From the IMG/VR virus record IMGVR_UViG_3300024262_006558, positions 62,001-126,000 of that record: a stretch of 64,000 bases of DNA. One strand, given 5' to 3'. The translations under genes and the position numbers were made by a program. The stretch is from a virus. Below the pieces are notes generated by a model. It was not told where the DNA came from, ran no database searches, and worked only from the letters and a program-made list of their open reading frames with translations. Below, piece after piece: positions 7,731-60,102 of the stretch (positions are counted from its first letter, which is position 1; each line of letters opens with the position of its first letter).

Positions 7731-10268
7731 TTAATGGAAATCAACCCACGTACTTCCATCATACCCTCTAAATTTGCTAGTAGTAGAATTAAAAACTATC
7801 ATTCCAGCCGTTGCTGTCAACGCTCCCTCCTCGGTAGTATCTACAACATTAGTTTTAAAAACTCTTGTTGTAGATTTCAAATCTAAACCAACAGAGGAGG
7901 TTGTCGCAGTAAGCCCGTGTATTACTAAAGCGCCAGTTCCATTTATGTATTGATCTTCAGTTTTAGCAAACAACACTCTAGGCACGTCTTCAGCCCATCC
8001 AAGAGCAAAAGAATCACTTAGTAAATTATCTACTGAATCCCCCATTGTAATAGAACGAGCCCCTAAAGCCTGATTGTAATTAACATTATTACCAATACTT
8101 ATAGTGTTTATTCCAGATGTTCCAGTAGTACCTCCTCCAGCTCTATATCCAATACAAACTTGAGCCTGAGCTCTAGCTGCAGATTGCGTACCTATAGACA
8201 CAGCATTTGTGCTATCCACTGTAGCATCTCCAATAGCTATAGACCCATTACCACTCGCAAAAGAACTACTTCCAATAGCGATAGACCCGCTACCATCACT
8301 TCTAGATGTGCTACCAATAGCTAAAGCTGTACTGCCAGAAGAGCTTGCTCCTGGACCTATTGTGACTGAGTTTGCTCCGATTGTTGCAGCGTTATAATTA
8401 GTCGCGCTTCCTATGGTTATAGAAGAGGCACCAAACGTTGTCACATTACCACCACCCGCTCTATATCCTAAAGAAATTGCTCCATTAGCATCGCTTTCAG
8501 ATTGATTTCCGATAGCTACAGCATTTGCGTCTTTAGCTTCAGACTGAGTCCCTATTGCTACAGAGTTGGATCCTATGTTTACAGATCCATCGTTTGATTG
8601 ATATCCTATAGAAACCGAAGAATTCCCTTTTGTCCCTGTCGTATTTCCAGCGTTATACCCAACAGCTATAGCTCCAAGAACTTCGCTTGTAGCTACATTT
8701 CCTATAGACAAAGAATATTGACCTGATGCTACTGAGCTCCTCCCTAGTGATATAGAATATAAACCGCTAGAATCCACATTATGACCTACAGCTACAGAGG
8801 ATGTAGTTGTTGCTTGCGATAAGTAACCTATACATACTGATTCACCTCCCGATGACGTAGTTGTACTGCCGACTGCTACTGAATTATTACCTATATCTGT
8901 AGTGCCTTGATTTGAGTTATACCCCATTGACACCGTCACTGAACCTTTGGTTCCAGTGGTGTTTCCAGCGTTTTTACCAATGGTTACAACTCCTAAATTC
9001 TCAGCTTTAGCTGACCTACCTATAGCTATAGATTCAAGACCTGAAGCTATAGAATTGTATCCTACAGAAACTGAATCATTTCCATCTGACTGAGAAAAGC
9101 CTCCAACTGATATACCTCTTTCCCCCTTAGCATTTGAAGCTCCTCCAATAGACACAGATGTTACACCTGTAGCTTCAGCCAAATACCCTAAGGAAACAGA
9201 GTAGTTAGAACGAGTCTTAGATTGATATCCTATTGCAACAGAATCTAAACCTATATCATTAGATCCATTATTAGATAAATGCCCAATGCTTATTGCATAA
9301 TTATTTTTTGCACCGCTAGTGTTTCCAGCATTATACCCAATCGACACGCACCCTGAAGCAGATTTAGAAAGCCTACCTATAGAAATGCTATCGGTTTCTG
9401 TAGATGAAGCTTCCGAGCCTATAGCAATGGAATAGTCACCAATTGCATCCGACTGATACCCTACAGCAGTAGGTCTAACTCCAGAAGCGTTAGCGCTCTC
9501 ACCTACAGATACAGCTGAAGAACTACTTCCAGAAGCCAAATAACCTAAACTAAAAGAGCCATCATTTTTTAAAGTTAATAAATCATTCGACCCAGTTTTG
9601 AAATCCAAATCATAACCATTAAGCTCTAGTGAGGTGTCTTGAATTATGCTACCTCCAAACCCAAAAGTGTTTGCGCTATATTCAGTTATAGCATTTACAA
9701 AACTATTAGAAGATCCACCCCCGCCTAATAGTAAAGATAAATCCGTACTACCTGAATAAAACGTGGTTGCACTTATCGTAGATGCGCTAAACGAGTTAGC
9801 TGAATTACTTCCGCTTACGTATAAATTATCTAAACTTGCTCCAGTGATATTTACCGTTGGTAAATTTTCCGTCCCGCCAGTGAATGTGTTTACACCATTA
9901 CCAATTCGAGTAATATCCACAGCTCCATTTCCAAACAACAAAGACAAATCCGTACTTCCTGAATATATTGTTGCAGCGCTTATTGTAATAGCGCTAAACG
10001 AGTTAACCTGACTATCTCCACTTACCGTAATATTATCAACAGTTAAGCCAGTAATGTTTACCGTTGGTATATTATCCGTTCCTCCAGTAAATGAATTTAC
10101 ACCATTACCAACGCGAGTAACATCTATAGACCCGCTTCCAAACAATAAAGACAAATCCGTACTTCCAGAATATATAGTGTCACCCGAAATAGATGGATTC
10201 GAATTTACACTGCTTAAAAAATTATTTTCATCTAATCCCCTTCTAGGAAAACCACTCTTACTTCCCAT
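7731..10268 (-). CDS. Tail fibre/adhesin with YadA-like head repeats
   Basis: 845 residues. Residues 1-210 hold two fibre modules and three SGSTDLSLLFG units. The centre (about 225-750) is a long run of roughly 14-residue repeats of the type SVAIGYQSKTRSNYS and GYNAGNTTGTKG, the left-handed beta-roll of trimeric autotransporter (YadA-like) heads. The end (MIVFNSTTSKFRGYDGSTW) matches a C-terminal motif common in phage fibres. A trimeric, host-binding fibre is the natural reading; the host receptor is unknown. Confidence 0.85.
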   Translation of the reverse strand: MGSKSGFPRRGLDENNFLSSVNSNPSISGDTIYSGSTDLSLLFGSGSIDVTRVGNGVNSFTGGTDNIPTVNITGLTVDNITVSGDSQVNSFSAITISAATIYSGSTDLSLLFGNGAVDITRIGNGVNTFTGGTENLPTVNITGASLDNLYVSGSNSANSFSASTISATTFYSGSTDLSLLLGGGGSSNSFVNAITEYSANTFGFGGSIIQDTSLELNGYDLDFKTGSNDLLTLKNDGSFSLGYLASGSSSSAVSVGESANASGVRPTAVGYQSDAIGDYSIAIGSEASSTETDSISIGRLSKSASGCVSIGYNAGNTSGAKNNYAISIGHLSNNGSNDIGLDSVAIGYQSKTRSNYSVSLGYLAEATGVTSVSIGGASNAKGERGISVGGFSQSDGNDSVSVGYNSIASGLESIAIGRSAKAENLGVVTIGKNAGNTTGTKGSVTVSMGYNSNQGTTDIGNNSVAVGSTTTSSGGESVCIGYLSQATTTSSVAVGHNVDSSGLYSISLGRSSVASGQYSLSIGNVATSEVLGAIAVGYNAGNTTGTKGNSSVSIGYQSNDGSVNIGSNSVAIGTQSEAKDANAVAIGNQSESDANGAISLGYRAGGGNVTTFGASSITIGSATNYNAATIGANSVTIGPGASSSGSTALAIGSTSRSDGSGSIAIGSSSFASGNGSIAIGDATVDSTNAVSIGTQSAARAQAQVCIGYRAGGGTTGTSGINTISIGNNVNYNQALGARSITMGDSVDNLLSDSFALGWAEDVPRVLFAKTEDQYINGTGALVIHGLTATTSSVGLDLKSTTRVFKTNVVDTTEEGALTATAGMIVFNSTTSKFRGYDGSTWVDFH

Positions 10269-10279
10269 AATTAACTTTA

Positions 10280-10801
10280 TTAATAAATAGCATCAAATAT
10301 ACCTCTTGAATCCATCTCTAAAACTTTATTTCTAATCGCGTCTGGTAATGTTGCGTTTTTTTCAATCATTACTAAATTAAAGAAATAATCAAACTCACCT
10401 ATCTCCGTCTCCATTCCTTCATTTAATAAAAAATCATTACCTATTTTGAACGTGTGTCTCTTCTCAATAGGTAAACCCGATTCATCTATATATGTTATCA
10501 ACATAGAAGCGTACATAGTTCTAGTGGAAAAATCCATGGGCATTGAGAGAATTGTTACCTTCCTTTCATTGTCAGTTTCTTCAAAAACATAATTTGAAAT
10601 TATTACATCAAATATTGATTCTTCTTCTAAATCAAAATCGAAAACAATGGAGCTATAATCAATATTCTTTCTTCTAAAAAAGTGTATAGCCTCATCCAGT
10701 TCACCAACAAAAGCTTTTTCTTTTGTTCTAGTTATAGACGTTTCTTCATGCTCTATACATGAAAGAACTTCTGTGTCGTTGTATAATATTCTATACTCCA
10801 T
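10280..10801 (-). CDS. Hypothetical protein in fibre locus
   Basis: 173 residues, mixed alpha/beta and acidic (EELE-rich), with no fibre repeats, so not itself a fibre shaft. The size and place between two fibre genes would suit a fibre chaperone or a small baseplate protein, but no motif proves either. The downstream gene's promoter-like element lies over its stop codon. Confidence 0.65.
   Translation of the reverse strand: MEYRILYNDTEVLSCIEHEETSITRTKEKAFVGELDEAIHFFRRKNIDYSSIVFDFDLEEESIFDVIISNYVFEETDNERKVTILSMPMDFSTRTMYASMLITYIDESGLPIEKRHTFKIGNDFLLNEGMETEIGEFDYFFNLVMIEKNATLPDAIRNKVLEMDSRGIFDAIY
10281..10291 (-). promoter_or_regulatory. Late-promoter-like element inside the 3' end of the upstream gene
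   Basis: Sense GCTATTTATTA overlaps the last codons and stop of the upstream gene and lies about 12 nt before the ATG at 10268. Confidence 0.45.
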
Positions 10802-10816: not shown

Positions 10817-13498
10817 TTAAATTCCACCACCATCAATTATTACCCAAGATGAATTGCTTATTAAGTTTGCTCTAGCTGTATCTGCCGCCCCACCTAGAGT
10901 GTATGTAGAAGAGCCAAAATCAGCAGTGACACTAGATTGAACCGCTCCACCTTCCCATGCTATTAATAGAGCATCATAATCAGCTGTTGATATATTAGTG
11001 CCATTTAAGAAACCTGTCATATCGGTAACGCCTGAAATGTCCCATTCATCAAAATTAACACTAGTTAATGAAGTGCAATCTTTAAATGTATCCACTAACG
11101 TTGTATCTAAAATTAAATCTGGAATATCTGTTGCTGTTACTTCTAAGTTAGCGCATCCATTAAGATTAAGAGTGTATGGCTTATTAGTACCCCATTGTTT
11201 CACTTTTTTAATTTTCAACTTATCCCCCGTATCATCAAAATGAAAATGTGGTATATCTGTATTGTTTAACGACATCATTCTTATTTCATATGTACCAGCA
11301 GTACTATATTCGTGACTTAAATCAGGTGTTGTATTATGTCGCTCCGCTTCATCATCTCCCCAAAACACCTTAAAATTATTAGCACCTGCTCCTATATCTT
11401 GTGTAGGTAAAGTAAACGTTTCGTTACCACTTGTCGTTTCTACTTCAATGATAAACTCATTCCATATTTCAGATTCAGTTGTAACAGACCATCCAGCATT
11501 AGTCAAAGTTGTCACGGCAGATAACCCATCATAACCACCACTAGTGCCATCGGGTGCTGAATTGTTTGATATATTCAAACTTCCGCTTCCATAACTATGT
11601 GTAGTTTCCATACTAGCAATATCCACTAATATTTTATTTACTTGTGCTGTTGTAAAATAATTAGTAGTTAATTGTATATCTGTTCCTAAACAGTTTAATG
11701 CTGAAAAAGCATTTATATCTAAATCTGTAGTTAATCCATATAAATTTGTTAACCACAAATTTGTCCCTCTTGACCCTCTTGCTAAATAACCACCTGTTCT
11801 AAAAGGGATTTCTTTTACTCTATGAAAATGTTGCAATCTTAAATCTCTGTGATTTATAAATCCCGACATATCACATACTGTTCCATCATATTGATTTGTA
11901 AGAGCAAGGAAAGACGATGGTGGCGTAACATCACTACCACTAGGAGGAAATATAATATTAACGTCAGTGATGCTTAAATTTGATATATCTCTACAATCCA
12001 TCCAAGCTGAAGCAATCATGTCTTCTCTTGATAAATCAAGAGTACCTGTTAAGTTAGGCACAAATCTACAATTAAACTGAGTAATTCTACCAAACGTATT
12101 TGATGGAGTAAACATGTTAACGGTTGCTAAATTAACATTATTGCTTATAGTAAAGCTACCACCCAAAAAAATAGAGGTAGATAAATCTAATTCTGTGATA
12201 GTGCCATTATTTGTCAAATTTAATCCTCTAATTCTAGTCCCATCAAAATCGTATGATGAAACATTTAGATTTCCAAGTGATAATGATACACCATCAGTTC
12301 TTTGGTATGCTGAAAAATCTAAACTACCAGTGATACCACCGTTATTTGTTAAGTTCAATGTTGAAATATTACTTTCTTGCCCATTATCTACTGTAAAAGA
12401 TGTTAATCCAATATCATCTAATTGTAAATTGGCATCAACAAATGTAACACCTGTCAAATCCAATACTCCAATATTAGCACTAGAATTACTACCTATGTCT
12501 AACTCTGTATATGTTGTTGTTGCGTTTGGCGGCAAAGTTATAGATGTTAAATTTCCTGTTCCTTGCCCTTGAACTCGGAGTATCCCATTAAAATTTTTAA
12601 AACCAGATAAGTCTAAAGTGTTTATTGTATTGTTATATAATCTTACTTGTGTGATTTCATTAGTTATATTACTATTAAATGTTAATGTACTAATTTCACA
12701 ATGATTTAAAAAAATATTACCACCTAAATTATGCATTGCTGATAAATCAAATACTTTATCAGCAGTATTATCAACACCAGTACCTTCTGTAAAATCTATT
12801 TTAGTTATTATAGGAGCATCCAATTCTACGAATGTTGGAAATGTTATACCACTATGCACTGTTCTATCTATTGTTATAGAACCACCCAATCTTGACCATG
12901 TTGATAAATCTAATACCGCATCAGCATTGGTATTGTTATCTCTTAGATTTAATATCGTCACTGGTCTAGTCACATTTATTGGTAGAATTGGGTCATTAAC
13001 ACCAAATATGTTAGAAAAATTTATTATACCACCAAACATACCATTTACATTCAATGGTGTTAAATCCAACCTACCATCTATTGAATTTTCACCGCCATAT
13101 GTTACTATTCCATCTAAATCATTAATTTGTGCTAACGGTACTACAATCTCTGGTAATGTTATATTATCAGCACTCAAAAAAACAGAGCCTAATTGAATGT
13201 ACTCTAGATATTTATATTCGGATAAATCTAAAACACCAATAGTGTTGGTATCAGGAACAGTATATGTATTACCTCTTTTTTGTTGTATTATTAAAGTTTC
13301 TAGTTTGTTTGTAAATCCAATATCATCATCACTCTGCTTAACGCCATAATCAATAAAATATGTGTTATTACTATATGAGCCATCTGCGTATTTTATTAAA
13401 CCGAAATTACCACTACCATAACCAGATTCTTCATAATTTGGTCTAGGTATGACTAATCTTTTATACTTCGCTGATGCTAAAATTCCTCCAAATCCCAT
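10817..13498 (-). CDS. LRR-like adhesin with BspA/DUF285 C-terminus
   Basis: 893 residues. From about residue 60 to 610 there are irregular leucine-rich-type repeats with the recurring core LDLS or LNLTNNG every 20-30 residues (LDLSTWSRLGG, LDLSGFKNFNG, LDLTGVTFVDA), which would fold as a beta-solenoid. The last 90 residues contain TFKDCTSLTSVNFDEWDIS and GVTDMTGFLNGTNIS, typical of the DUF285/BspA-like surface repeats of Bacteroidota and Firmicutes. It lacks the IYSGGT module of neighbouring fibres and has no signal peptide, so it is probably a virion adhesin rather than secreted. Likely acquired from a host-type surface protein. Confidence 0.78.
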   Translation of the reverse strand: MGFGGILASAKYKRLVIPRPNYEESGYGSGNFGLIKYADGSYSNNTYFIDYGVKQSDDDIGFTNKLETLIIQQKRGNTYTVPDTNTIGVLDLSEYKYLEYIQLGSVFLSADNITLPEIVVPLAQINDLDGIVTYGGENSIDGRLDLTPLNVNGMFGGIINFSNIFGVNDPILPINVTRPVTILNLRDNNTNADAVLDLSTWSRLGGSITIDRTVHSGITFPTFVELDAPIITKIDFTEGTGVDNTADKVFDLSAMHNLGGNIFLNHCEISTLTFNSNITNEITQVRLYNNTINTLDLSGFKNFNGILRVQGQGTGNLTSITLPPNATTTYTELDIGSNSSANIGVLDLTGVTFVDANLQLDDIGLTSFTVDNGQESNISTLNLTNNGGITGSLDFSAYQRTDGVSLSLGNLNVSSYDFDGTRIRGLNLTNNGTITELDLSTSIFLGGSFTISNNVNLATVNMFTPSNTFGRITQFNCRFVPNLTGTLDLSREDMIASAWMDCRDISNLSITDVNIIFPPSGSDVTPPSSFLALTNQYDGTVCDMSGFINHRDLRLQHFHRVKEIPFRTGGYLARGSRGTNLWLTNLYGLTTDLDINAFSALNCLGTDIQLTTNYFTTAQVNKILVDIASMETTHSYGSGSLNISNNSAPDGTSGGYDGLSAVTTLTNAGWSVTTESEIWNEFIIEVETTSGNETFTLPTQDIGAGANNFKVFWGDDEAERHNTTPDLSHEYSTAGTYEIRMMSLNNTDIPHFHFDDTGDKLKIKKVKQWGTNKPYTLNLNGCANLEVTATDIPDLILDTTLVDTFKDCTSLTSVNFDEWDISGVTDMTGFLNGTNISTADYDALLIAWEGGAVQSSVTADFGSSTYTLGGAADTARANLISNSSWVIIDGGGI

Positions 13499-13515
13499 TT
13501 AATTAAATCTATTTT

Positions 13516-15882
13516 TTAGTTATAACCTATACCTGTATCAATACTAATATCAACACCATCATATTGGATGAATACTTTATTCGTATCATTCGCTATTGTG
13601 CTTAACGCTAATGGTGATTTAATACCATTATTGGCAACAATTGCAGTATTTGCAATGGTAACTTCGTGTCCACCTGTCCCATCTTGTTTAATGTTGGCTT
13701 GATATTCTCCACCATTTACATGGTTAGAAATTGTGATTGTGGTATCCGCTGTTATTGTTATGGTAATCTTTGGCTCCACCGAAACATCCCATGCATAAGT
13801 TACTCCAGTGTTTCCAACTGCTGTAAAGGCGGTTGGGCCGCCTCCAGACAAGTCTCTAATAATTGTTTCTACATCCGTAGATCCAGAATAAAATGTAGTT
13901 GCGCTTAATGATGTGAAAGATGACTCTCCACTAACCGTTATATTATCAACAGTTAACCCAGTTACGTTTATCGTTGGTAAATTTTCCGTCCCGCCAGTGA
14001 ATGTATTTACACCACTTTGAACTCTTGTGATATCAGCATTGTCACCAGTAGTATCTAAATCAACATACTCTTCAGGATTAAAGAACATCCTACCATCATA
14101 ATACCAACCAACCTGCTGAAGGAATCCACTAGAATACTGGTTGTCAGTTAACCCTCCAAGAACAGTTTGAGAAAGATAAATAGCTGTAGCGCTTGAGTAG
14201 CCCAAATCTATATCTAAAGTTGACCCAACCGTGCCTATATTGATAGTATTAGCGTCTACAACAGAGCTTACATAGTTTGTAACAAAGCTATCATTAATAT
14301 CAGCGCTAGAGTTAGCTATAGATTTTGTCCAAACGGATCCGCTTATACTCACCATATCACCTACTGATAATCCGTGACTAGCTTGAGTATAACTCAGGGA
14401 TTCTGTAGCAAATATATCAAGTAAATTCGTGCTTCCTGAATAAAAAGAGGTTGCTGAAACCGATCCTTGAGCATTAAAATTGATCCCATAAACAGTGTCC
14501 TCCGTTTCCCCAGTAATGCTTTGCCCCCCTAAAATAACAGATCTAAAAGCCGCTGGTGTTAACATGTTGCTTTGGCCGCCTAATATTGCAGACTCGCTAG
14601 ATATTACAGTTGATCCCGAAGAGTGAATAAATGATCTTGGTCCAATAGCTGAAGATTTAGACCCTCCCGCGTGAGTATTATTTCCTAGCGCTGTAGTATA
14701 CTCCCCTTCTGAATGAGAATTGGGCCCAGAAGCAGTAGTTGAATAACCTTCAGCATGAGACGCTATACCTATAGCTTTATTGCTTAGACCTTCAGAAAAG
14801 GAAGCGTTACCTGACGCTGTTGTGCCAGAACCTATCGCGAAAGAAAAGTCGCCAGTAGATAAATTGTTCCCACTTACAGAGAGTATAGCCCCGTTTATTG
14901 GATTTCCACTAAGTGGGGATGATGTTATATTCTCTTTTATTAAACCTATTGATGGTATGTTATTATCGTCAGTTGACCAGGTTACATTAGGTTCATCAGA
15001 TGCTCTATCAAAAAACTTTAAACCTCTACCTGTATAGCTTTCTCTTATCGTGGTTCCTGAGTTAGAGACTCCATCAGGGTAAATGTAAAACCCTTGATAT
15101 GTTGTGCTTGAAGAATATGTTTTTCTGTGTATTATTCCAATTCTTGTTGCAGAAACACCTGTAACTTCACCTCTAAGAGCAATTTCAGATCTAGTGATAG
15201 AAGAATAGTGGTCTGGATATCCTGCATTAGCTCTAAATGAAATTTTCCCTGGACCTGTTTCATATGGGACCCCAAAATAATCACCTTTTCTATTTGACCC
15301 TTGACTCGTATCAAAACTAGAAGAGTCGCCTACTTTTGTTGGGAATGAATTAAAATATAATCCAGCATTTGTTTTTCCAACCGCATCAGATGATGATGTT
15401 GTAAAATCAATATAACCTCCAAACCCAGTAGTTCCAGACCCGATGTTATTAAAAAACATTCCATCATTAGTCTTAAACCCTCCTTGTTTTAATCTAGATG
15501 ATGAAGTACCTAGTGAAAGAATATTCGTGTCTCCACCATTTAAATTTCTACTAGATGTTAATGTGCCATCGCTGTTATATATATTTGTCTCCCCTCCAAA
15601 CAAATCAGACAGATCAGTCCCCCCAGAATATATAGTGGTTGCTGAAATTGAACCTGTTATATCCAGATCTCCTACAACTGTTCCCCCACTTAAATTTAGA
15701 TAAGATTTAGCTCCAATTTCAAAAATGTTACTTCCGTCATAGGAAAACAACTTTTGATCAGCCGTGTTCAAAGCAAGCTCGCCTTGCTTAATAAGATTAG
15801 ACTCGCTACCAGTAGTTCCAGATGGAACTCTACTAGGAATCGCGGTTTTCTTTACTATTAACCGTACGCTTCTATCTGACAT
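13516..15882 (-). CDS. Tail fibre with YadA-like head and shared C-terminal modules
   Basis: I start this at the ATG at 15882 (MSDRSVRLIVKK) instead of a TTG eight codons upstream, giving 788 residues. After a phage-type N-terminus (GELALNTADQKLFSYDG) come IYSGGTDL units, a non-repeated middle, then YadA-like repeats (SHAEGYSTTASG, SHSEGEYTTALG). The block ILGGQSNMLTPAAFRSV...DTVYGINFNAQGSVSAT is nearly shared with the next fibre at 16011-18254, which indicates cassette exchange. One fibre module and a 100-residue beta domain end the protein. Confidence 0.83.
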   Translation of the reverse strand: MSDRSVRLIVKKTAIPSRVPSGTTGSESNLIKQGELALNTADQKLFSYDGSNIFEIGAKSYLNLSGGTVVGDLDITGSISATTIYSGGTDLSDLFGGETNIYNSDGTLTSSRNLNGGDTNILSLGTSSSRLKQGGFKTNDGMFFNNIGSGTTGFGGYIDFTTSSSDAVGKTNAGLYFNSFPTKVGDSSSFDTSQGSNRKGDYFGVPYETGPGKISFRANAGYPDHYSSITRSEIALRGEVTGVSATRIGIIHRKTYSSSTTYQGFYIYPDGVSNSGTTIRESYTGRGLKFFDRASDEPNVTWSTDDNNIPSIGLIKENITSSPLSGNPINGAILSVSGNNLSTGDFSFAIGSGTTASGNASFSEGLSNKAIGIASHAEGYSTTASGPNSHSEGEYTTALGNNTHAGGSKSSAIGPRSFIHSSGSTVISSESAILGGQSNMLTPAAFRSVILGGQSITGETEDTVYGINFNAQGSVSATSFYSGSTNLLDIFATESLSYTQASHGLSVGDMVSISGSVWTKSIANSSADINDSFVTNYVSSVVDANTINIGTVGSTLDIDLGYSSATAIYLSQTVLGGLTDNQYSSGFLQQVGWYYDGRMFFNPEEYVDLDTTGDNADITRVQSGVNTFTGGTENLPTINVTGLTVDNITVSGESSFTSLSATTFYSGSTDVETIIRDLSGGGPTAFTAVGNTGVTYAWDVSVEPKITITITADTTITISNHVNGGEYQANIKQDGTGGHEVTIANTAIVANNGIKSPLALSTIANDTNKVFIQYDGVDISIDTGIGYN

Positions 15883-24397: not shown

Positions 24398-24508
24398 CTA
24401 ATTATTTTTACCCTCTTCTTGCTTTCGAACTTCATATCCACATTCTCTACTGCATGCAGGAGAAGTTTCTTTAGGTAGTGGATTGCCACAAATTGTACAT
24501 GTTCCCAT
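24398..24508 (-). CDS. 36-residue Zn-finger protein
   Basis: A very short gene starting MGTCTICGNPLP and containing CSRECGYEVRKQ, giving a C-x2-C-x11-C-x3-C zinc-binding arrangement. The start is supported by the late-promoter-like element 2 nt upstream. It lies between the small-gene array and the tail genes. Function unknown; such mini zinc ribbons are common in phages. Confidence 0.55.
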   Translation of the reverse strand: MGTCTICGNPLPKETSPACSRECGYEVRKQEEGKNN

Positions 24509-24510
24509 GT

Positions 24511-24521
24511 TAATAAATAGA
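24511..24521 (-). promoter_or_regulatory. Late-promoter-like element
   Basis: Sense TCTATTTATTA, adjoining the ATG at 24508, so the transcript would be nearly leaderless. Confidence 0.4.
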
Positions 24522-24562
24522 CAAAAAAAGATTTGTAATGATCCCTTTTTAAATATTAATTA

Positions 24563-24624
24563 CGATAACAGAAAATAAAAGATAACTCTTCGAGTCGCTT
24601 AACGCTTATCTTTATTTTCGTGTT
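24563..24624 (-). repeat. attC-like inverted repeat, tandem with the next
   Basis: Sense arms begin ACACGAAAATAAAGATAA and end TTATCTTTTATTTTCTGTTA; each arm has an unpaired base, as in attC sites. About 58 of 59 positions match the plus-strand site at 60262-60321. It abuts the next repeat with no gene between, as if a cassette had been lost. Confidence 0.7.
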
Positions 24625-24682
24625 GTATGCCATTAAAACGGTACGCTCGTACCTCGCCATACAACATGGTATATAAAACATA
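24619..24682 (-). repeat. attC-like inverted repeat
   Basis: Sense TGTTGTATGGC pairs with GGCATACAACA around a loop containing GCGTACCGTTTTAAT. The same arms and loop occur in the plus-strand site at 59684-59750, with a short insertion here. It begins 7 nt after the stop of the 52-residue gene. Confidence 0.7.
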
Positions 24683-24688
24683 CACTCA

Positions 24689-24847
24689 CTACCACTTTTC
24701 TTCTTTAAGAATTATAGGGTCAAAGGCGTAACCTAAATACGCCTTATACAGTTCAGGTCTTATCCAACCCCTATGTTTAGTTTTTAACCAAATTCCTTTT
24801 TTTATACGCCTTATTATGCGTATTTCATTCCATATACTTGTTATCAT
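24689..24847 (-). CDS. Cassette ORF, 52-residue hypothetical protein
   Basis: A complete small gene, ATG at 24847 to TAG, beginning MITSIWNEIRIIRRIKKGIW. It is basic and aromatic, with no recognised family. The stop is followed by an attC-like repeat, as for the other genes of this array. The preceding sequence (24848-24890) carries a weak partial repeat. Confidence 0.5.
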   Translation of the reverse strand: MITSIWNEIRIIRRIKKGIWLKTKHRGWIRPELYKAYLGYAFDPIILKEEKW

Positions 24848-24890
24848 AATCCGTTCGTTTTACGTTTCATATACTTACCGTTGTAACACA

Positions 24891-25181
24891 TTAGCCAACT
24901 CTCGCTAAGTGCTTTCTAAAATCTTCGTTTTCCTTTTCCATAAATTCAGTAGCCTTTTGCATACATTCAATTAGGTTGTGGTTCTTGGTTTCTATTATTT
25001 CAGCAACTCCTTTCCATTGTCTTACTTCAGATGGGCTACCTTTGTCGCTTACATTTATGAAATAACCATCTTCATAGTCATACATAAAACAGATATTTCT
25101 TTCTTTTGCCAACGCTTCAAAACGTGTTACAACATTTTGTATAGTGCATGGCTTAATTTCGTTTTCTTTATTAGTGTTCAT
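24891..25181 (-). CDS. Cassette ORF, 96-residue hypothetical protein
   Basis: Begins MNTNKENEIKPCTIQNVV. It is predicted alpha-rich with a central beta segment (ICFMYDYEDGYFINVSDKGS). No family recognised. The 3' end abuts a partial inverted repeat containing TTACAACGGTAAGTATATG. No promoter of either class is evident. Confidence 0.6.
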   Translation of the reverse strand: MNTNKENEIKPCTIQNVVTRFEALAKERNICFMYDYEDGYFINVSDKGSPSEVRQWKGVAEIIETKNHNLIECMQKATEFMEKENEDFRKHLARVG

Positions 25182-25221
25182 CCTTATTTAAGTTTTTGGT
25201 CATTTATTTAATTAGCGGTTT

Positions 25222-25262
25222 CAAATCGCCACGACACCATACAAGATGCCGTTGTGTGTAAT
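25222..25262 (-). repeat. Partial attC-like site
   Basis: Sense TTACACACAACGGCATCTTG starts 2 nt after the stop of the gene at 25264. It closely matches the left half of the plus-strand site at 58935-59007 (AACGGCATCCTGTATGATGT), but its right arm is degenerate. Confidence 0.5.
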
Positions 25263-25263
25263 A

Positions 25264-25473
25264 CTAGCAACTACCATATCTGAAACTCCCAAATCCTTCA
25301 CCTTCGTATTCAGAATCAATAAAGAACCCTAATTTATCAAGTTCCTCAATATCATCCTTGCTCACTAATTCAGGGTCAATAGCTACATAAAAGTAGTCGT
25401 GTTCACAATGGCTTGGGTTTCTTGGGTTGCCATATTTTAAAAGTATTTGTAATGCTTTAATTAAATCTTCCAT
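25264..25473 (-). CDS. Cassette ORF, 69-residue hypothetical protein
   Basis: I use ATG 25473 (MEDLIKALQILLKYGN) because the extra 15 residues from an upstream ATG run into the neighbouring inverted repeat. The protein is acidic, with IDPELVSKDDIEELDKLGFF followed by EYEGEGFGSFRYGS, reminiscent of small uncharacterised integron-cassette proteins. No function assigned. Confidence 0.6.
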   Translation of the reverse strand: MEDLIKALQILLKYGNPRNPSHCEHDYFYVAIDPELVSKDDIEELDKLGFFIDSEYEGEGFGSFRYGSC

Positions 25474-25504
25474 CTTTCTATTTAGTTTGTGGCTTAAATT
25501 CCGT

Positions 25505-25606
25505 ACTACACACAACAATGTATATAGTTTATAAGCCTAATTAATATTATTTTTCAATTTGTAAATTTGTGCTATGGCTTACAAAACCATATACTCAACG
25601 TTATGC
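25505..25606 (-). repeat. Long attC-like inverted repeat
   Basis: About 100 nt. Sense GAGTATATGGTTTTGTAAGCC pairs imperfectly with GGCTTATAAACTATATAC around a 40-nt loop. The outer ends are GCATAACG and TTGTTGTGTGTAGTACGG. It begins 7 nt after the stop of the gene at 25613. Confidence 0.65.
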
Positions 25607-25612
25607 TTAACA

Positions 25613-25870
25613 CTATTGCATTAATTCTAACATAGCGTCTATACCATGTATTTGTTTAGTTGCTTTGAGTGTATCGTCTTCTTTGCTCTCTATATTTAAA
25701 GAGTAGCTTTTGCCATAACAAACTACTTTATCACTATGTATGTGGCAAAATCCAGCACTTATAGGTTCAAGGTGTTTAAAAGTCGAGTGTTCTATTGTTG
25801 TCGGGAAAATTATAATTTCGTCATATTCTCCTAATCTTACGTATTTCTGTTTTGTATCGTACATTTTCAA
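25613..25870 (-). CDS. Cassette ORF, 85-residue hypothetical protein
   Basis: Begins MKMYDTKQKYVRLGEYDEII and ends IHGIDAMLELMQ. It appears beta-rich with a central FCHIHSDKVVCYG segment. No family recognised. One gene, one following inverted repeat, same direction as its neighbours. Confidence 0.6.
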   Translation of the reverse strand: MKMYDTKQKYVRLGEYDEIIIFPTTIEHSTFKHLEPISAGFCHIHSDKVVCYGKSYSLNIESKEDDTLKATKQIHGIDAMLELMQ

Positions 25871-25902
25871 TTTTAGTTTAGTGGTTTAACAATCCGTGAT
25901 AA

Positions 25903-25957
25903 GCATAACACAACCTATAAAGCCAAAAAAAAGGCTTATAGCTTTGTGCATTAGGCA
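25903..25957 (-). repeat. attC-like inverted repeat
   Basis: Sense CACAAAGCTATAAGCC pairs with GGCTTTATAGGTTGTG around an eight-T loop, with GTTATGC at the end. Unpaired bases (AA opposite GT) interrupt the stem. It starts 3 nt after the stop of the gene at 25961. Confidence 0.7.
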
Positions 25958-25960
25958 CAA

Positions 25961-26185
25961 TTAAGAAACGAACTCATTAAATTCATCTTCCTTAATTTCT
26001 CGTGCTTTACTATTCGTTACACCACCATACTTTTTAGATACCTTTAAAACCGCATCATCTTCATTTAATGCAAATGTGTAAGCACTCGAAGGTGTACAGT
26101 AAGGTCTTGATACCCTATAAAATTTAACTGTGCCTAACATTGTGTATAGCACATTGCTTTCGGTGTTTTTTGATACTGTATTCAT
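25961..26185 (-). CDS. Cassette ORF, 74-residue hypothetical protein
   Basis: Begins MNTVSKNTESNVLYTMLGTV. A short beta region (KFYRVSRPYCTPSSAYTFAL) is followed by ALNEDDAVLKVSKKYGG, which looks like a small fold that recognises no cofactor I can name. Same cassette arrangement as its neighbours. Confidence 0.58.
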   Translation of the reverse strand: MNTVSKNTESNVLYTMLGTVKFYRVSRPYCTPSSAYTFALNEDDAVLKVSKKYGGVTNSKAREIKEDEFNEFVS

Positions 26186-26213
26186 AGTTTTAAGTTTTTT
26201 ATTTTCAATTTAA

Positions 26214-26254
26214 GTTAGTGAGGCAACGCGCCATACACTCGTTCGTTATAGTGC
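26214..26254 (-). repeat. Short, weak attC-like site
   Basis: Sense GCACTATAACGAACGAGTGT, then GGCGCGTTGCC and CACTAACTT follow the stop of the gene at 26258. Pairing is poor compared with the other sites; it may be a truncated copy. Confidence 0.35.
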
Positions 26255-26257
26255 ATA

Positions 26258-26440
26258 TTATTGCTTTACTTCTTTACCACAATCAAAACACTCGTATTCT
26301 GTTTCGCTTATTGGTTTTTGCATACTTGGCTGCACACAATCGCAATAAAACGTACCCTTCGGCACAATAACATTATCTATATTTAATAGCTTGTTTTCTG
26401 CTTCCTTTTTACCTTCGTTGTACATTTGAAAATCATTCAT
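26258..26440 (-). CDS. Cassette ORF, 60-residue Zn-ribbon protein
   Basis: Begins MNDFQMYNEGKKEAENKLLN and contains CDCVQPSMQKPI and YECFDCGKEV, that is C-x-C plus C-x2-C, which could hold one zinc ion. No DNA-binding or enzyme motif is visible beyond the ribbon. One of a series of single-gene units. Confidence 0.6.
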   Translation of the reverse strand: MNDFQMYNEGKKEAENKLLNIDNVIVPKGTFYCDCVQPSMQKPISETEYECFDCGKEVKQ

Positions 26441-26500
26441 AATTCATATTTTTAAGTTATTAATCGCTACTAAAACATAGACCTTACATTATATTTAATG

Positions 26501-26698
26501 CTACTTATGTAGTTCTAAACAACGGTATCTAAAATTATATTCATCGTACCAAAAACTTCTACAATTCCACATATTTATAGCATCCCCATAAACATTATTA
26601 TCAAACTTTAACCCTCTTTCTTCTGCTTGTTTGCAACTGTCTATCACTTTAAATCTGTGATAAAAGCATACAGTCATAAATCTTAATATTTTTTTCAT
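26501..26698 (-). CDS. Cassette ORF, 65-residue hypothetical protein
   Basis: Begins MKKILRFMTVCFYHRFKVID. It is aromatic-rich with a central DAINMWNCRSFWYDEYNF. The start is uncertain, as Met8 is an alternative. The downstream 60 nt carry only a weak partial repeat (GTAGCATTAAA...TTTTAGTAGCG) whose end resembles the cassette boundaries elsewhere. Confidence 0.5.
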   Translation of the reverse strand: MKKILRFMTVCFYHRFKVIDSCKQAEERGLKFDNNVYGDAINMWNCRSFWYDEYNFRYRCLELHK

Positions 26699-26732
26699 TT
26701 TATCTATTTTGTTTTTAGTTAATTAACCGCAC

Positions 26733-26790
26733 TAAAATATAACACGGTATAAAATGGCATTAAAACGCCATCTATACAACCGTTATATGC
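26733..26790 (-). repeat. attC-like inverted repeat
   Basis: Sense GCATATAACGGTTGTATAGA and ATGGC pair with GCCATTTTATACCGTGTTAT around the loop GTTTTAAT. It is the most regular site of this array. It begins 3 nt after the stop of the gene at 26793. Confidence 0.72.
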
Positions 26791-26792
26791 AA

Positions 26793-27101
26793 TTATAGTT
26801 TTAGTATTTGTTTAATGTCTGAATAACTAAACGTGCTACTTTTGAATTGATTCTTATCATTAGGGTTATACTTACCTATTTTATGACAATCTCTTTGTAT
26901 ATGATACAATAAATCACCAGTAGCGTACAGACTGCCATCTTTATTTATGCTGTAAACTACCCCTTCTTTTACCGTGTACAAATCTCTTCTTGCAACATAA
27001 TCTCTACCACAATAACACAAAGATATTTCCGCAAACAACCCACCTTCAAGCTCTCCACTTATTCTTAAATTTTCGGATAGTTCTTTTTCTATTAAATCCA
27101 T
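26793..27101 (-). CDS. Cassette ORF, 102-residue hypothetical protein
   Basis: Begins MDLIEKELSENLRISGELEG. A CYCGRDYVARRDLYTVKEG segment is followed by a helical end (SYSDIKQILKL). No family recognised. It is the first clear unit of the minus-strand array; the 155 nt upstream (27102-27256) hold only a half repeat (GCCGTTTACTATATGCTGTA) and no gene. Confidence 0.6.
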   Translation of the reverse strand: MDLIEKELSENLRISGELEGGLFAEISLCYCGRDYVARRDLYTVKEGVVYSINKDGSLYATGDLLYHIQRDCHKIGKYNPNDKNQFKSSTFSYSDIKQILKL

Positions 27102-28076: not shown

Positions 28077-30458
28077 TTAAAAATCTTCGAACGAAGCGCC
28101 AGTTGGTAAAACTTGAAAGGTCAAGTCGATGAATTCAACTGATGGAGTTGGTTGTAATTGAATCTTACCTACCAATGTGTTTCTATCAATTGTATCTGTA
28201 GAGTTCAAAGTGTCATCCATTACCACATTAAAAGCATTTAAACCTCTTTGGTTTTGGATATTCAATAATATTGGCTCCACTTTCGCTAAGAATTGATCTC
28301 TTAACGTCTGATCGTTTTGTTCGAAAAGCAATGTTAAAGATGCTGCAGCTACTAATCTTCTTACTTGAAGTAATAATCTTCTTACGTTGATTCTATCAAG
28401 TGAAGAACTTTGTCTCTGTAGTGTCTTCTGACCAAAGATAACGATACCTTGTTGAACGAAAGATGCAATTGGATTGACTCTTCCTTGGTAAAGCGTATCT
28501 CTGTTTCCAGCGTTCATTTTCACATCAACTTTGTTTACAAAGTCTCCTAACAAACCTCTGTTGATACCTGCTGGCGCGAACCATGGGTTAGCAACATTAT
28601 CTGTAAGCGCGATTGCTTGAACAGCTCCCATTGTAGGTGCTTGGTAAGTATAAACACTATTGTTAGCGTCTATAATTTGAATCCAAGGCCAATAAGTAGC
28701 AGCATAACTAGAATCAATTCCTGTTGAATCTAATATAGACACAATCTCTTCTGGAGTTCCCTTAACTTCACCAGAGGTAAGTCTTGGAGCATCCATTATG
28801 TATAAGCTATCAGCTCTATCTTCAACCATTTCAAGCGCAGAATTAATTAACTCAAAGTTATTTGAGAAATCTATACCTGGCGTTGCGAATAGGTTGATGT
28901 CAACCTCTTCTGGATTAGAAAATGTTCCAATACCTGCTTTAAATGAATTTGAGTTATCTATTTTAGATGCTGCAAATTCTTCATATTGCTCTTCATAAGA
29001 ATACAATTTATCCCATCCATCAAAACCGCCTGCTGGCACTAATGTGAATTTCAATTTATTTCTATCAATTCTAGTTCCTGCAGCATTAGTATAAGCTGAC
29101 ATTGAAATTTTATCTCCAGTAGTAAATCCTGTTGGCGCAGCGCTTTCCATATGGAAACCGTTAACAGTTGTCATTCCGCTAGAAACCCCTCCTTGATAAG
29201 AGAAAAAATCTTTCTCAAGAGTCTTGATAGAATTCTGGAAAGAAATCTCATTTTGAGTTTGAGAAGTGTATCCAAGCTCAGTAAGACCTAAATAAGATCT
29301 AAAGATTGAATCTCCTGACAAATATGTAGTTTTATAAAATAAATCTGGAGCAGTTGTTCCAGAAACTCCATTATTTCTAATGCTATATCCTCTAAAACCA
29401 CCTGGTACAGTGTTAGATGGTATATTTTGAGCCATCTCTACAGTTATGTAAGAAGATCTCCTTGGGTAATCCTCATCAGTTGTACCAATTACTCTTGCAA
29501 TGTAACCGTTTGAAGTTTCATCTAACGAAAGATTAGAGAATCTTTCAAGAGCTGTTTGGCTAGCTGTTTTGTCTGTATCATTAAAGCTTCTTACTAGAAG
29601 ATCGAATGTATAGTTGTTAATGTCAATGTTTTGAATTGATATCTTGATTTCTTCATTTGCAGAATCACCATCAGAAATTGTTCTAACCTTGAAAAGGTTT
29701 CTAACTTCATTTCCTATAACTCTAGAAACAACCCATGGAGTAACTGCGTCAGAATAACTGTCAGCATAATCTGTATAAGAAGCATCATTTGCGTATACTA
29801 AAGTAGGACTCAAATCTGACAACTCACCTCTTGCAAAAGATTCTCTCACATAATGAGGAAAAATACTTTCAACATAAAGATCAATTTCCCCTGTTATAAC
29901 ATCTGGACTTTCACCTAACGCTCTAACAATGTAATCATCTCTAGTTTCATCTAAAGATACTGTCATTCCGCTTCCAGTAATCCCTGTCATAGGACCTGTA
30001 GTTGCGCTTAATACGAATGAACTAAGAGGTGTACTACCTGTAGTTAACCCCCCTATAGTCACGTCACTTTCCTCATTGAATGAGAACTCTCCGCTAATTT
30101 GATTTGCTTTACTTCTAAGAACTGCTAATACTGATCCAGCATTAGTTGATCCTGTTCCAGCAACGATTAACCACGCTCCTGAGTTAGTAAAACCATTTTG
30201 TCCCAAAATTCTTGTGACCGTTAACTCATTGGACTGTGCCAAGAATGCGTTCGCAACATAAGGGAGTGAAAATTTAGGGTTTGTGCTTCCAAATCTTGCA
30301 AGGTACTCATCGGTACTTGCAATTTTTACTGGTTCGAAAGCAGGCCCTTTTAACGTTTTACCAACAAGACCCAATCTTGTGATACCAACTCTTGATGCAA
30401 AGATGGTAAAATCTTGTTCTCTAGTAAAAACACCTGGTGATAAGAATACTGTAGCCAT
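28077..30458 (-). CDS. Tail sheath protein (T4 gp18-like)
   Basis: 793 residues (T4 gp18 has 659). The N-terminus MATVFLSPGVFTREQDFT is typical of contractile sheath proteins, whose N-terminal arm links neighbouring subunits. FGSTNPKFSLPYVANAFL and RILG follow. The C-terminal domain (RINVRRLLLQVRRLVAAASL ... VGKIQLQPTPSVEFIDLTF) is the conserved inner domain that contacts the tube. Extra length lies in the central, exposed domains. The protein forms the contractile sheath around the gp19-like tube. Confidence 0.92.
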   Translation of the reverse strand: MATVFLSPGVFTREQDFTIFASRVGITRLGLVGKTLKGPAFEPVKIASTDEYLARFGSTNPKFSLPYVANAFLAQSNELTVTRILGQNGFTNSGAWLIVAGTGSTNAGSVLAVLRSKANQISGEFSFNEESDVTIGGLTTGSTPLSSFVLSATTGPMTGITGSGMTVSLDETRDDYIVRALGESPDVITGEIDLYVESIFPHYVRESFARGELSDLSPTLVYANDASYTDYADSYSDAVTPWVVSRVIGNEVRNLFKVRTISDGDSANEEIKISIQNIDINNYTFDLLVRSFNDTDKTASQTALERFSNLSLDETSNGYIARVIGTTDEDYPRRSSYITVEMAQNIPSNTVPGGFRGYSIRNNGVSGTTAPDLFYKTTYLSGDSIFRSYLGLTELGYTSQTQNEISFQNSIKTLEKDFFSYQGGVSSGMTTVNGFHMESAAPTGFTTGDKISMSAYTNAAGTRIDRNKLKFTLVPAGGFDGWDKLYSYEEQYEEFAASKIDNSNSFKAGIGTFSNPEEVDINLFATPGIDFSNNFELINSALEMVEDRADSLYIMDAPRLTSGEVKGTPEEIVSILDSTGIDSSYAATYWPWIQIIDANNSVYTYQAPTMGAVQAIALTDNVANPWFAPAGINRGLLGDFVNKVDVKMNAGNRDTLYQGRVNPIASFVQQGIVIFGQKTLQRQSSSLDRINVRRLLLQVRRLVAAASLTLLFEQNDQTLRDQFLAKVEPILLNIQNQRGLNAFNVVMDDTLNSTDTIDRNTLVGKIQLQPTPSVEFIDLTFQVLPTGASFEDF

Positions 30459-57925: not shown

Positions 57926-58058
57926 TTATGTTGAATTAAATAGGGGTGGGATTAAATGAACGTCTGCACTAGTCGAGTTGAAAATATACTTGCAAGTTGG
58001 TACTAAAGCCAACTATCCTAGCCAACGGGCTTTGCGGTTCACCCTATTTAATGTAACG
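57926..58058 (+). repeat. Long inverted repeat, attC-like, reversed polarity
   Basis: GTTGAATTAAATAGGGGTG pairs with CACCCTATTTAATGTAAC over a loop of about 95 nt. It starts with GTT and ends with AAC, the reverse of most sites here. The next site overlaps its right end. Confidence 0.5.
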
Positions 58059-58139
58059 CTTTGTGTATGGTTAGTAAACCCTTGCACAGACTTTCAAAAT
58101 TAGTATAAACCTTGGTGGGTTTATTACCTACAATGTTAA
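58053..58139 (+). repeat. attC-like inverted repeat before the first cassette gene
   Basis: TAACGCTTTGTGTATGGTTA and GTAAACCC pair with GGGTTTATTACCTACAATGT and TA; several bases are unpaired, mainly on the left arm. The loop holds about 38 nt. It ends 45 nt before the ATG at 58184. Confidence 0.62.
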
Positions 58140-58183
58140 ATGTATGCTTTGCTAGAGATTACGGACAGATAACCACTAAAACA

Positions 58184-58489
58184 ATGGACTTAAAAAAGAG
58201 AATAGAAGAAATTACACAAAACGGAACGCTTGAAAGCGGTGAACAAATAACCTATGTAGATACCGATGACCTTTACTTGTTGCTGAATGAAGTAAACTCT
58301 AGTGAAGTCATACATCTTGTTAGCGATTGGAATGATTGGGTATATGGATCACCTACATCAATAATAGATGGGAGTCATATTGAAGTTATGTGGTCTGACA
58401 ACTCAGTCACTAAAGTTTTTTATGAATGGAGAAGTAAATCTATGGCACATAAGTTACCACCAATAAAGTGGAGGTATTCTAATAGCTAA
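58184..58489 (+). CDS. Cassette ORF, 101-residue hypothetical protein
   Basis: Starts at ATG 58184 (MDLKKRIEEITQNGTLESGE); the earlier ATG at 58112 lies inside the inverted repeat. It is acidic, with DDLYLLLNEVNSSEVIHLVS and a Trp-rich C-terminus. The stop codon is the first base set of the next attC-like site. Function unknown. Confidence 0.6.
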   Translation: MDLKKRIEEITQNGTLESGEQITYVDTDDLYLLLNEVNSSEVIHLVSDWNDWVYGSPTSIIDGSHIEVMWSDNSVTKVFYEWRSKSMAHKLPPIKWRYSNS

Positions 58490-58550
58490 CGGTTTGGCTA
58501 TGTGCTGAACGTAGAGCAACGGAGTTTTGCATATAGCTAGTGTTATATGC
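58485..58550 (+). repeat. attC-like inverted repeat
   Basis: TAACGGTTTGGCTATGTGC pairs with GCATATAGCTAGTGTTA; G, TT and other bases stay unpaired. It overlaps the stop codon of the gene at 58184-58489. Confidence 0.7.
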
Positions 58551-58581
58551 TTTTAATTATTAACAACTAAAGATTATAAAA

Positions 58582-58932
58582 ATGAGTGAAACAGTACATT
58601 ACAGAGGGATTGCTACTAAAATTGAGCAACCAAACGACAAGACATTAATTGATGTCGCAAAAAGTATTTTAACAGAACGTAACAAAGAAATAGCCGACTA
58701 TTATGACAATGTAATAGAGTGTTTGTGTGATAGCTATTATAGAGAATTTTTCTACCATTCAAAAACACAGACCCTTTACAAATTAGACAATAATGAATAC
58801 GAGCCTGATGAAGATATAATAAGAGCAGAACCGAAAGAAAACGGGACTATTGAATATGAGTTAAGATATTATAACGGTGGTGCTGGATTTGATGAATGTA
58901 TGGAAGAGGCTTTTGATAAGCTCGATGCTTAA
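58582..58932 (+). CDS. Cassette ORF, 116-residue hypothetical protein
   Basis: MSETVHYRGIATKIEQPNDK opens it, with NVIECLCDSYYREFFYHSKT in the middle and YNGGAGFDECMEEAFDKLDA at the end. A complete, plausible soluble protein with no family that I recognise. The stop is 2 nt before the next repeat. Confidence 0.65.
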   Translation: MSETVHYRGIATKIEQPNDKTLIDVAKSILTERNKEIADYYDNVIECLCDSYYREFFYHSKTQTLYKLDNNEYEPDEDIIRAEPKENGTIEYELRYYNGGAGFDECMEEAFDKLDA

Positions 58933-58934
58933 TT

Positions 58935-59007
58935 GCATATAACGGCATCCTGTATGATGTCGTGAAACGAAGTGGAATGCATTCATACACCGTGTTGTGT
59001 GTAGTGC
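58935..59007 (+). repeat. attC-like inverted repeat
   Basis: GCATATAACGGCATCCTGTA with TGATGT pairs with TCATACACCGTGTTGTGTGT. Its left half matches the minus-strand half-site at 25222-25262. The trailing AGTGCGGATTA recurs after the next site, marking the cassette boundary. Confidence 0.7.
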
Positions 59008-59036
59008 GGATTATTAACTGATAACAAAATTAAAAG

Positions 59037-59216
59037 ATGAATGTATTTGATGAATTTTTAATGGAATCTGAAAAGGAACAATTAAAAGACAACCGACTGA
59101 AAGAACAGAAAGATAAAAAAGACTACTCGTATGAACACGATGGTAGAATAGAAACATGTGACGATTGTAGAACACCTATAAACTCACACGGACACTGCCC
59201 TAGATGCGATTACTAG
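59037..59216 (+). CDS. Cassette ORF, 59-residue Zn-ribbon protein
   Basis: MNVFDEFLMESEKEQLKDNR is followed by a charged helix and CDDCRTPINSHGHCPRCDY, a four-Cys ribbon at residues 41-57. The stop is directly followed by the short repeat at 59217. Function unknown. Confidence 0.58.
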   Translation: MNVFDEFLMESEKEQLKDNRLKEQKDKKDYSYEHDGRIETCDDCRTPINSHGHCPRCDY

Positions 59217-59250
59217 CATTACACACAACGGATGGTAATATGAATAGTGC
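59217..59250 (+). repeat. Short attC-like site
   Basis: CATTACACACAACGG matches the pairing arm of other sites (compare GTTGTGTGTAGTGC at 58993), but the right arm is nearly lost, ending TGAATAGTGCGGATTA. Probably a deleted site. Confidence 0.45.
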
Positions 59251-59267
59251 GGATTAAAAACATAAAA

Positions 59268-59435
59268 ATGGCAAAGACACGAGAACAAAAAAGAATTGAA
59301 AGTGCGGATAAAGTTTGTAGAGAACTTAGATACCAAATAGTTAAATATGGATTGATAGGTGATTGGGACGCATTAAATAAGCACTTTAATTCTTGGATGA
59401 ATAACGCTAAGAAATCTAAATACGACAGACCCTAG
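59268..59435 (+). CDS. Cassette ORF, 55-residue hypothetical protein
   Basis: Starts at ATG 59268 (MAKTREQKRIESADKVCREL) and ends AKKSKYDRP. Basic and helical. A GTG seven codons upstream lies in the repeat boundary and is not used. Function unknown. Confidence 0.55.
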   Translation: MAKTREQKRIESADKVCRELRYQIVKYGLIGDWDALNKHFNSWMNNAKKSKYDRP

Positions 59436-59436
59436 C

Positions 59437-59497
59437 ATTATTTATATTACGTGTTGTGCGCACGTTTTAATTGCGACACAACGCTAAGTATAACAAA
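59437..59497 (+). repeat. attC-like inverted repeat
   Basis: ACGTGTTGTGCGC pairs with GCGACACAACGC with one unpaired base; loop ACGTTTTAATT. It follows the stop by 1 nt. The outer bases (TTACG/CTAAG) are imperfect. Confidence 0.55.
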
Positions 59498-59514
59498 CGG
59501 AAAATTTACGACTT

Positions 59515-59673
59515 ATGAGATTTGAATTAATGCAATGGAAATGGTATAGGAAGTGGAAAGGTGGCTCTTATTACCTTATATGGAATTGGCTACCTATGAA
59601 CACTTTTTGGAGCGACAAACTTATTACAAGCTGTGGAGGCAGAGCCATTAAAGAGGAACACTACCCTAAGTAA
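59515..59673 (+). CDS. Cassette ORF, 52-residue hypothetical protein
   Basis: MRFELMQWKWYRKWKGGSYY is aromatic and basic, ending AIKEEHYPK. No family recognised. It lies between two attC-like sites and is in phase with them. Confidence 0.5.
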   Translation: MRFELMQWKWYRKWKGGSYYLIWNWLPMNTFWSDKLITSCGGRAIKEEHYPK

Positions 59674-59683
59674 ATTTTATGTT

Positions 59684-59750: not shown

Positions 59751-59791
59751 GTGTTTAACTGAACTTAATTTGAAACACAAAACTTAAAATT

Positions 59792-59992: not shown

Positions 59993-60002
59993 TTACAATG
60001 TT

Positions 60003-60066: not shown

Positions 60067-60102
60067 TTCGTTTTTGAGCGTTGGCATTTAAAAACTAAAA
60101 AG

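Follow-up and report, generated by a model that had tools for sequence, protein, structure and literature searches.

Probable integron-type cassette arrays with reversed genes in a huge phage, and a candidate recombinase in Bacteroidota

Integron cassettes close into a circle and thereby complete their hairpin. How a gene comes to be joined to an attC, and what determines its direction, has to our knowledge not been settled for integrons. In Treponema, intI is oriented with its array. Cassette arrays without an integrase of their own (CALINs) are already known from phages, and in the accessible text of the 2023 report on them Polaribacter phage P12002L has, like the phage described here, tandem small cassettes, attC-like hairpins and no phage integrase (PMC9892861). 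The same text records that attC2 of P12002L recombined with attI1 and remarks on "divergent directions" of its attC sites (PMC9892861). Neither systematic gene reversal nor the side of the breakpoints, a terminal hairpin or the sharing of cassettes between phages is described in that accessible text, which is the closest to the present case in the open-licence literature, where no description of reversed phage cassettes was found (PMC9892861). For Bacteroidetes proper, the available part of the IntegronFinder 2.0 paper gives at first only In0 elements and then one complete integron, in Salinibacter ruber (PMC9024848). The "reverse integron" of Treponema includes ORF-less cassettes that may carry promoters, with which an ORF-less unit (E) and a unit of terminal hairpin plus promoter in the present phage can be compared; in the accessible portion of that source its genes are not described as reversed relative to attC (PMC6557892).

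The window analysed here is a stretch of 64,000 nucleotides, bases 62,001-126,000 of a 388,594-bp virus record (G000). A tail-sheath gene at 28077-30458 of the window marks the virus as a huge, contractile-tailed phage; no tRNA genes and no Rfam matches were found in the 64-kb window. Two runs of small genes and hairpins lie within it, array 1 at 24398-27101 on the minus strand and array 2 at 58055-60322 on the plus strand, and a third is found at 241-249 kb of G000. We propose, with a probability of roughly 0.74 for the explanation as a whole, that the window arrays are integron-type cassette arrays without an integrase of their own (CALIN-like), that their hairpin family is special to Bacteroidota and that the integrase would be supplied in trans by the host. 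No match to PF00589 (Phage_integrase), the mark of a tyrosine recombinase, was found anywhere in the 388,594-bp record or in 38 of 39 related viral records, and the best score for IntI (TIGR02249) in the phage was only 11.3 bits (E 0.02). As in sedentary chromosomal integrons, sites within an array are uniformly oriented, the two ends of a cassette are complementary to each other and exchange appears to fall at G^TT. Unlike in integrons, the R' box is GTTRTRY, phage genes are reversed, IntI is absent (TIGR02249, 0 of 395 Flavobacteriales) and the recombinase gene found beside host arrays points toward the array. In this last respect the Treponema system is similar, its recombinase gene likewise being oriented with the array; the hairpin family of the present arrays is different, and the recombinase lineage is expected to differ as well.

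Hairpins were located with a stem-scoring scan (AAC-spacer-stem...stem-spacer-GTT), which superseded a strict regular expression that gave too few sites; both the scan and its threshold were built on this hairpin family itself. The 388-kb phage record yielded 11 sites, all within cassette runs, compared with 0 in block-shuffled and 0 in reversed sequence. The cassette ORFs of array 1 (26793-27101, 26501-26698, 26258-26440, 25961-26185, 25613-25870, 25264-25518, 24891-25181 and 24689-24847) are on the minus strand, as is the ORF at 24398-24508 that follows the terminal hairpin, G; Pfam gave no match for six tested ORFs of this array. The attC-like hairpins on the same strand lie at 24663-24882 (score 20.8, 0 control matches, with the 52-aa ORF 24689-24847 in its loop), 25514-25602 (15.4), 26136-26247 (17.7) and 26741-26784 (a weak 11.9), and a further one at 25131-25253 is below the scan threshold and was recognised by eye. 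Array 2 opens with a hairpin at 58055-58137, also seen by eye below the threshold, and continues with attC-like hairpins at 58488-58544 (15.3; 88.9% identity with G000 242247-242340), 58941-58996 (by eye; a 76% match to G000 248752-248847 across 97 nt), 59731-59842 (21.9) and 60007-60061 (R' GTTAGCG; by eye, below the threshold), and with two long hairpins at 59227-59455 (16.3), which encloses ORF 59247-59435, and 59480-59698 (15.4), which encloses ORF 59515-59673. Its hairpins and cassette ORFs (58184-58489, 58582-58932, 59037-59216, 59247-59435, 59515-59673, 59792-59992 and 60103-60264) are all on the plus strand. Four tested ORFs of array 2 had no Pfam match, and ORF 58582-58932 matches phrog_6035 (function unknown). 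An ORF named aminotransferase-like by resemblance (60395-61594) follows the terminal hairpin of this array.

Several features of these arrays that had been taken for half-sites are in fact long hairpins, the loop of which holds a small ORF or overlaps the start of one. The half-site reported in array 1 is the left arm of 25131-25253, the right arm of which lies within ORF 24891-25181. This ORF, ORF 25961-26185 (hairpin 26136-26247) and ORF 59792-59992 (hairpin 59731-59842) begin in a hairpin loop and cross its right arm, so that all three would be shortened if the hairpin were cut at the GTT on its right. Small ORFs lie entirely within the long loops of 24663-24882, 59227-59455 and 59480-59698, and comparable hairpin loops of P12002L hold annotated genes.

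The hairpin family extends well beyond this phage. A consensus of the arms of the phage sites matched 27 cellular loci, all Bacteroidota by title, and 37 viral loci, which hold 50 and 71 sites, respectively (the 71 including L012), with 0 sites in reversed controls; since sites, pairs and loci are related to one another, these and the following counts are not independent. As in integrons and CALINs, the sites are imperfect AAC...GTT palindromes between small genes, with one orientation per array, and their R' box is mostly GTTRTRY (GTTATATG, GTTGTGTG) and in some cases GTTAGNN, rather than the GTTRRRY of integrons. P12002L carries the same hairpin family as the window. Queries with single hairpins matched phage records for two of the four hairpins used and gave no match for the other two. 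Phages of 735 kb and 635 kb and Cellulophaga phage Nekkels_1 share cassette-like genes, and no family hairpin was found in the stretches of them that were scanned; the core pattern of G gave no match in a first scan of cellular genomes.

The direction of genes relative to the hairpin was counted over the 50 cell sites and 60 of the 71 viral sites, 11 being omitted as duplicates of others over +/-60 nt. No direction could be assigned to 9 cell and 24 viral flanks, and a number of others were too short. Host genes are antisense to the hairpin at 79 of the 84 decided flanks, whereas phage genes are in sense with it at 81 of 89, and phage cassettes are thus reversed relative to the host (canonical) ones. 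The exceptions are eight phage flanks and five cell flanks, the latter all in locus L043 and in a Polaribacter filamentus prophage (L053), where two cassettes of the phage type adjoin three genes of the host type, with all hairpins on one strand. Among the host-type genes of this prophage (contig 2467018-2471529) is one for a metallo-beta-lactamase-fold protein like PDC-M48B/LmuA of PADLOC. In four isolates annotated in GenBank (Polaribacter phages P12002L and P12002S, Cellulophaga phages phi12:1 and phi18:3), 20 of 21 hairpins are in sense with the flanking genes; the remaining one is flanked by gp23(+) and gp24(-) in P12002L, and a small CDS on the opposite strand (gp39) overlaps one of the 20. 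When 12 nt were removed at either end of the viral hairpins, 30 of 31 interiors still resembled those of cells in the same orientation, which argues that the gene is reversed and not the definition of the hairpin. The integron arrangement, in which the 3' end of a gene borders on the attC belonging to its cassette, is found in the host arrays and not in the phages.

Reversal of the gene bears directly on the explanation that the window holds an ordinary CALIN. Within one integron, attC sites are homogeneous, as with VCRs, and the likeness of the window sites would then be of this kind, the phage having taken canonical cassettes from a host integron. The hosts have the same hairpin family, the cassette signature of complementary ends is present, and phage CALINs have been published, in the accessible text one with attC sites active with IntI1 (PMC9892861). 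However, phage genes run opposite to those of the hosts, sequence breakpoints fall before the hairpin and not after it, the pair P12002L and P12002S keeps the following hairpin, and a GTT cut would shorten the three window ORFs mentioned above; an ordinary CALIN is therefore quite unlikely. The canonical reading of a phage cassette, a gene plus the hairpin that follows it, was dropped on the orientation counts and the side of the breakpoints.

The start and the end of the same cassette are complementary at 4.9 out of 8 positions in phages (52 cassettes) and at 5.0 in hosts (24 cassettes; seven duplicate viral loci and L053 being omitted), compared with 2.6 and 2.4 of 8 for randomly paired ends, and 0 of 2000 resamples reach the observed values. 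The two ends of one linear site are complementary at only 2.9 (phage) and 2.5 (host) positions. By analogy with integrons, complementary cassette ends can be read as the mark of a cassette that circularises to complete its hairpin. Breakpoints between related sequences were taken from alignment pairs covering a hairpin, leaving out alignments >1500 nt and hairpins >130 nt. Of 207 phage pairs, 160 have the left end of the likeness within 0-4 nt of AAC and none has it >40 nt beyond, while the right end passes GTT by a median of 22 nt, by >40 nt in 18 pairs and, in 5, by 498-717 nt, which takes in the whole of the following gene. At cell sites the same edge is found (59 of 89 pairs within 0-4 nt of AAC). 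As far as can be read from such alignments, exchange falls at AA^C/G^TT, that is, at G^TT of the recombinogenic strand, and because the likeness starts at AAC and runs past GTT, the mobile phage unit would be the hairpin with its downstream gene. P12002L and P12002S, lytic isolates on the same host strain, give an example. An extra 914 bp in P12002S is exactly one hairpin and the methyltransferase gene behind it, and in P12002L the upstream flank of the first hairpin is fused at TAAC to the second hairpin. A second P12002S insert, of 1,094 bp, is joined about 8-14 nt inside a hairpin arm and not at AAC, which indicates that homologous or illegitimate recombination also acts.

The last join would be in keeping with hairpins that are not recombination sites but transcriptional terminators or RNA elements, distributed through gene conversion, homologous recombination and phage mosaicism, with G as a repeated terminator. 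Phages commonly carry terminators and promoters as repeat units; G folds as a terminator-like stem, and a cousin of it stands before a promoter in native phage DNA. Such a reading does not predict complementary cassette ends, sharp breaks at AAC or arrays of the same hairpins beside a host recombinase, and it is considered very unlikely as an account of the arrays.

Integron-type cassettes also give an account of the sequences that the two window arrays have in common, which the sequence-only reading had arranged in three pairs and attributed to one cassette pool with exchange or duplication within the phage. The first pair, at 24565-24624 (minus) and 60263-60322 (plus), is identical at 59 of 60 positions, with a local alignment score of 115 against a maximum of 39 over 200 dinucleotide shuffles of the array. 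Both members are copies of G (AACACGAAAATAAAG...TTTTCTGTTAT in the first) and form the 3' ends of array 1 and array 2. The second pair is also real; from TATGTTTT through CATACAAC, the copy in the minus-strand array can be aligned to its plus-strand counterpart with two gaps, of 6 nt and 1 nt, and a few mismatches (score 75). What it holds in common is the ORF-less E unit, found as E' at 24625-24662 (minus), between GTT and AAC, and, by alignment to E', as E at 59699-59730 (plus). The own start and own end of this unit are complementary, and it is a cassette body without an ORF. The third pair shows some likeness, 27 of 33 nt, but its score of 41 against the shuffle maximum of 39 is weaker than the match that had been claimed, and it fits the general family likeness of these hairpins. 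Genes adjoining the shared stretches differ, as had been stated. A common pool is borne out by hairpins and cassette parts that the window arrays, the array at 241-249 kb and many other phages have in common.

Five copies of G are present in the phage, at 86565 (minus), 122255 (plus), 243258 (plus), 244325 (plus) and 249091 (plus) of G000, with identities of 93-98%, and single copies of G are found in an unrelated viral contig of 39,990 bp and in a contig of a phage nearly identical to this one. Each of the five is the 3' end of a cassette run, and in all of them the common stretch opens at AAC and is preceded by different DNA. The first pair is thus a terminal hairpin that closes every cassette run and not a gene-carrying cassette. 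Directly after G, in three of the five places, stands the repeated promoter-like element of the phage, and a 144-bp unit of G plus promoter is duplicated at 98% within 1.1 kb. Together with breakpoints at the AAC edge, this duplication upholds the earlier suggestion of exchange or duplication. At 236297-236350 of G000 a G-like stem has the same promoter behind it and no cassettes before it, which makes G a probable terminator of the phage, with attC-like ends in addition; because G is without GTAT...ATAC arms and was missed by the stem-scoring scan, we infer rather than observe that it acts as an attC site. The identical copies in the window could instead be a recent duplication within the phage, segmental or by template switching, with no site-specific step. 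This concerns the first pair only and is compatible with the cassette explanation; identities of 93-98% and the 144-bp duplication speak for it, whereas a common stretch that opens at AAC after different DNA in every copy, and the presence of the same unit in the unrelated 40-kb contig, speak against it, and it is unlikely.

Recombination between the shared repeats had also been suggested to invert or delete the intervening 35 kb. The G copies of the window are oppositely oriented, so that recombination between them could only invert, and no evidence of either event was found. Four stretches between 21,044 and 57,061 of the window were compared with the one near-identical contig (G028, IMGVR_UViG_3300009149_000028) and proved colinear with it, although a single near-clone is weak evidence. 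At 37265 and 29239 of P12002L and at 36675 of P12002S, the same 68 bp, starting AACAACGGATAAAAC, stand behind cassette runs and are perhaps the analogue of G in these phages.

Under the proposed mechanism, the phage cassette would be [C - hairpin - GTT - leader - gene - AA] and would move as a circle closed at AA|C. A host-supplied integrase could exchange it at the AA^C that borders the following hairpin, with G possibly serving as acceptor. The hairpin of host cassettes would be retained together with its nick, which reads G^TT in the opposite strand, but the gene is inverted: in hosts the 3' end of the gene abuts the hairpin, in phages the 5' end. With the gene inverted, arrays would sit in the direction of phage transcription and grow before a fixed terminal hairpin G, in which case the identical copies of G would explain the first pair and a common ORF-less cassette the second.

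A host enzyme for this exchange was sought among Bacteroidota. Of 395 genomes sampled across the phylum to which G009 belongs, 106 have canonical IntI (TIGR02249 over its cut-off), but at E 1e-50 it was found in 0 of 395 genomes of Flavobacteriales, the order that includes Maribacter algarum; the control genomes gave no match at 1e-50 either, but the same search at 1e-60 had matches in 108 of the 395 wider-phylum genomes. Classical IntI was set aside as the acting enzyme, a family hairpin outside intI being present in only 1 of 30 IntI loci drawn from the 106 genomes. Genomes with these hairpins encode recombinases of about 280-460 aa that match TIGR02249 in two pieces, and the two that were tested both have Phage_int_SAM_4 and Phage_integrase domains. 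The distance from KGxKxR to HxLRH is 65-66 aa in the five measurable recombinases compared with 107 in seven IntI, and the IntI-specific insertion (about 40 aa before HxLRH) is absent from the array-linked recombinases. In a tree, the seven IntI form one clade with the array-linked recombinases outside it. Among 20 recombinase neighbourhoods (271,907 bp summed, picked by score among TIGR02249 matches), 8 hold 20 hairpins, every one of which is downstream of the recombinase gene on the opposite strand, while 20 arbitrary 20-kb windows hold one hairpin. Most of the 12 neighbourhoods without a hairpin end soon after the gene, although 10 kb in L177 and 3.4 kb in L166 follow it without one. From this linkage and the protein sequences, the IntI-sister tyrosine recombinase is put forward as the candidate enzyme for the phage arrays. 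In L163 (3124-3495) and L118 (about 1122-1560), a small ORF, zinc-ribbon-like by eye, is divergent from the IntI-like recombinase; that of L163 had no Pfam match.

A host array beside such a recombinase carries defence genes, as do sedentary chromosomal integrons. Next to an IntI-like recombinase of Polaribacter filamentus (L170, gene at 9372-10526), host cassettes at 12923-15807 encode a nuclease resembling NucC as well as a 4TM effector together with an oligonucleotide cyclase (CBASS-like), and the cargo of this array is anti-phage defence; phage cassettes of the annotated isolates carry methyltransferases. If the proposal holds, hosts would stock defence genes and phages methyltransferases and other genes with one exchange machinery and opposite reading directions, and cassettes inserted before a phage-borne terminal hairpin would be read from phage promoters. 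Opposite gene directions on the same hairpins would provide a natural test of selection, setting strand choice by the integrase against transcription, and a candidate recombinase is named for a large order of Bacteroidota in which IntI was not found. The reversal of the genes and the candidate recombinase appear to be new. The broader proposition, that phages of Flavobacteriales and related Bacteroidota keep their own pool of inverted-gene cassettes, mobilised in trans by a host recombinase other than IntI, is given about an even chance. Lytic isolates precisely gain or lose cassettes, so the exchange can be tested in culture.

The promoter-like element that follows G, GTACATARTnnCCCC-n-GTATATATTnnnGA, precedes most genes at 230293-273517 of G000, outside the window; by pattern, 52 copies lie at 230-274 kb, 51 of them on one strand. 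Long families of diverged direct repeats lie inside large reading frames at 62-69 kb of G000 (1-7 kb of the window), and similar families occur in large reading frames at 273-281 kb; these reading frames probably encode repeat proteins.
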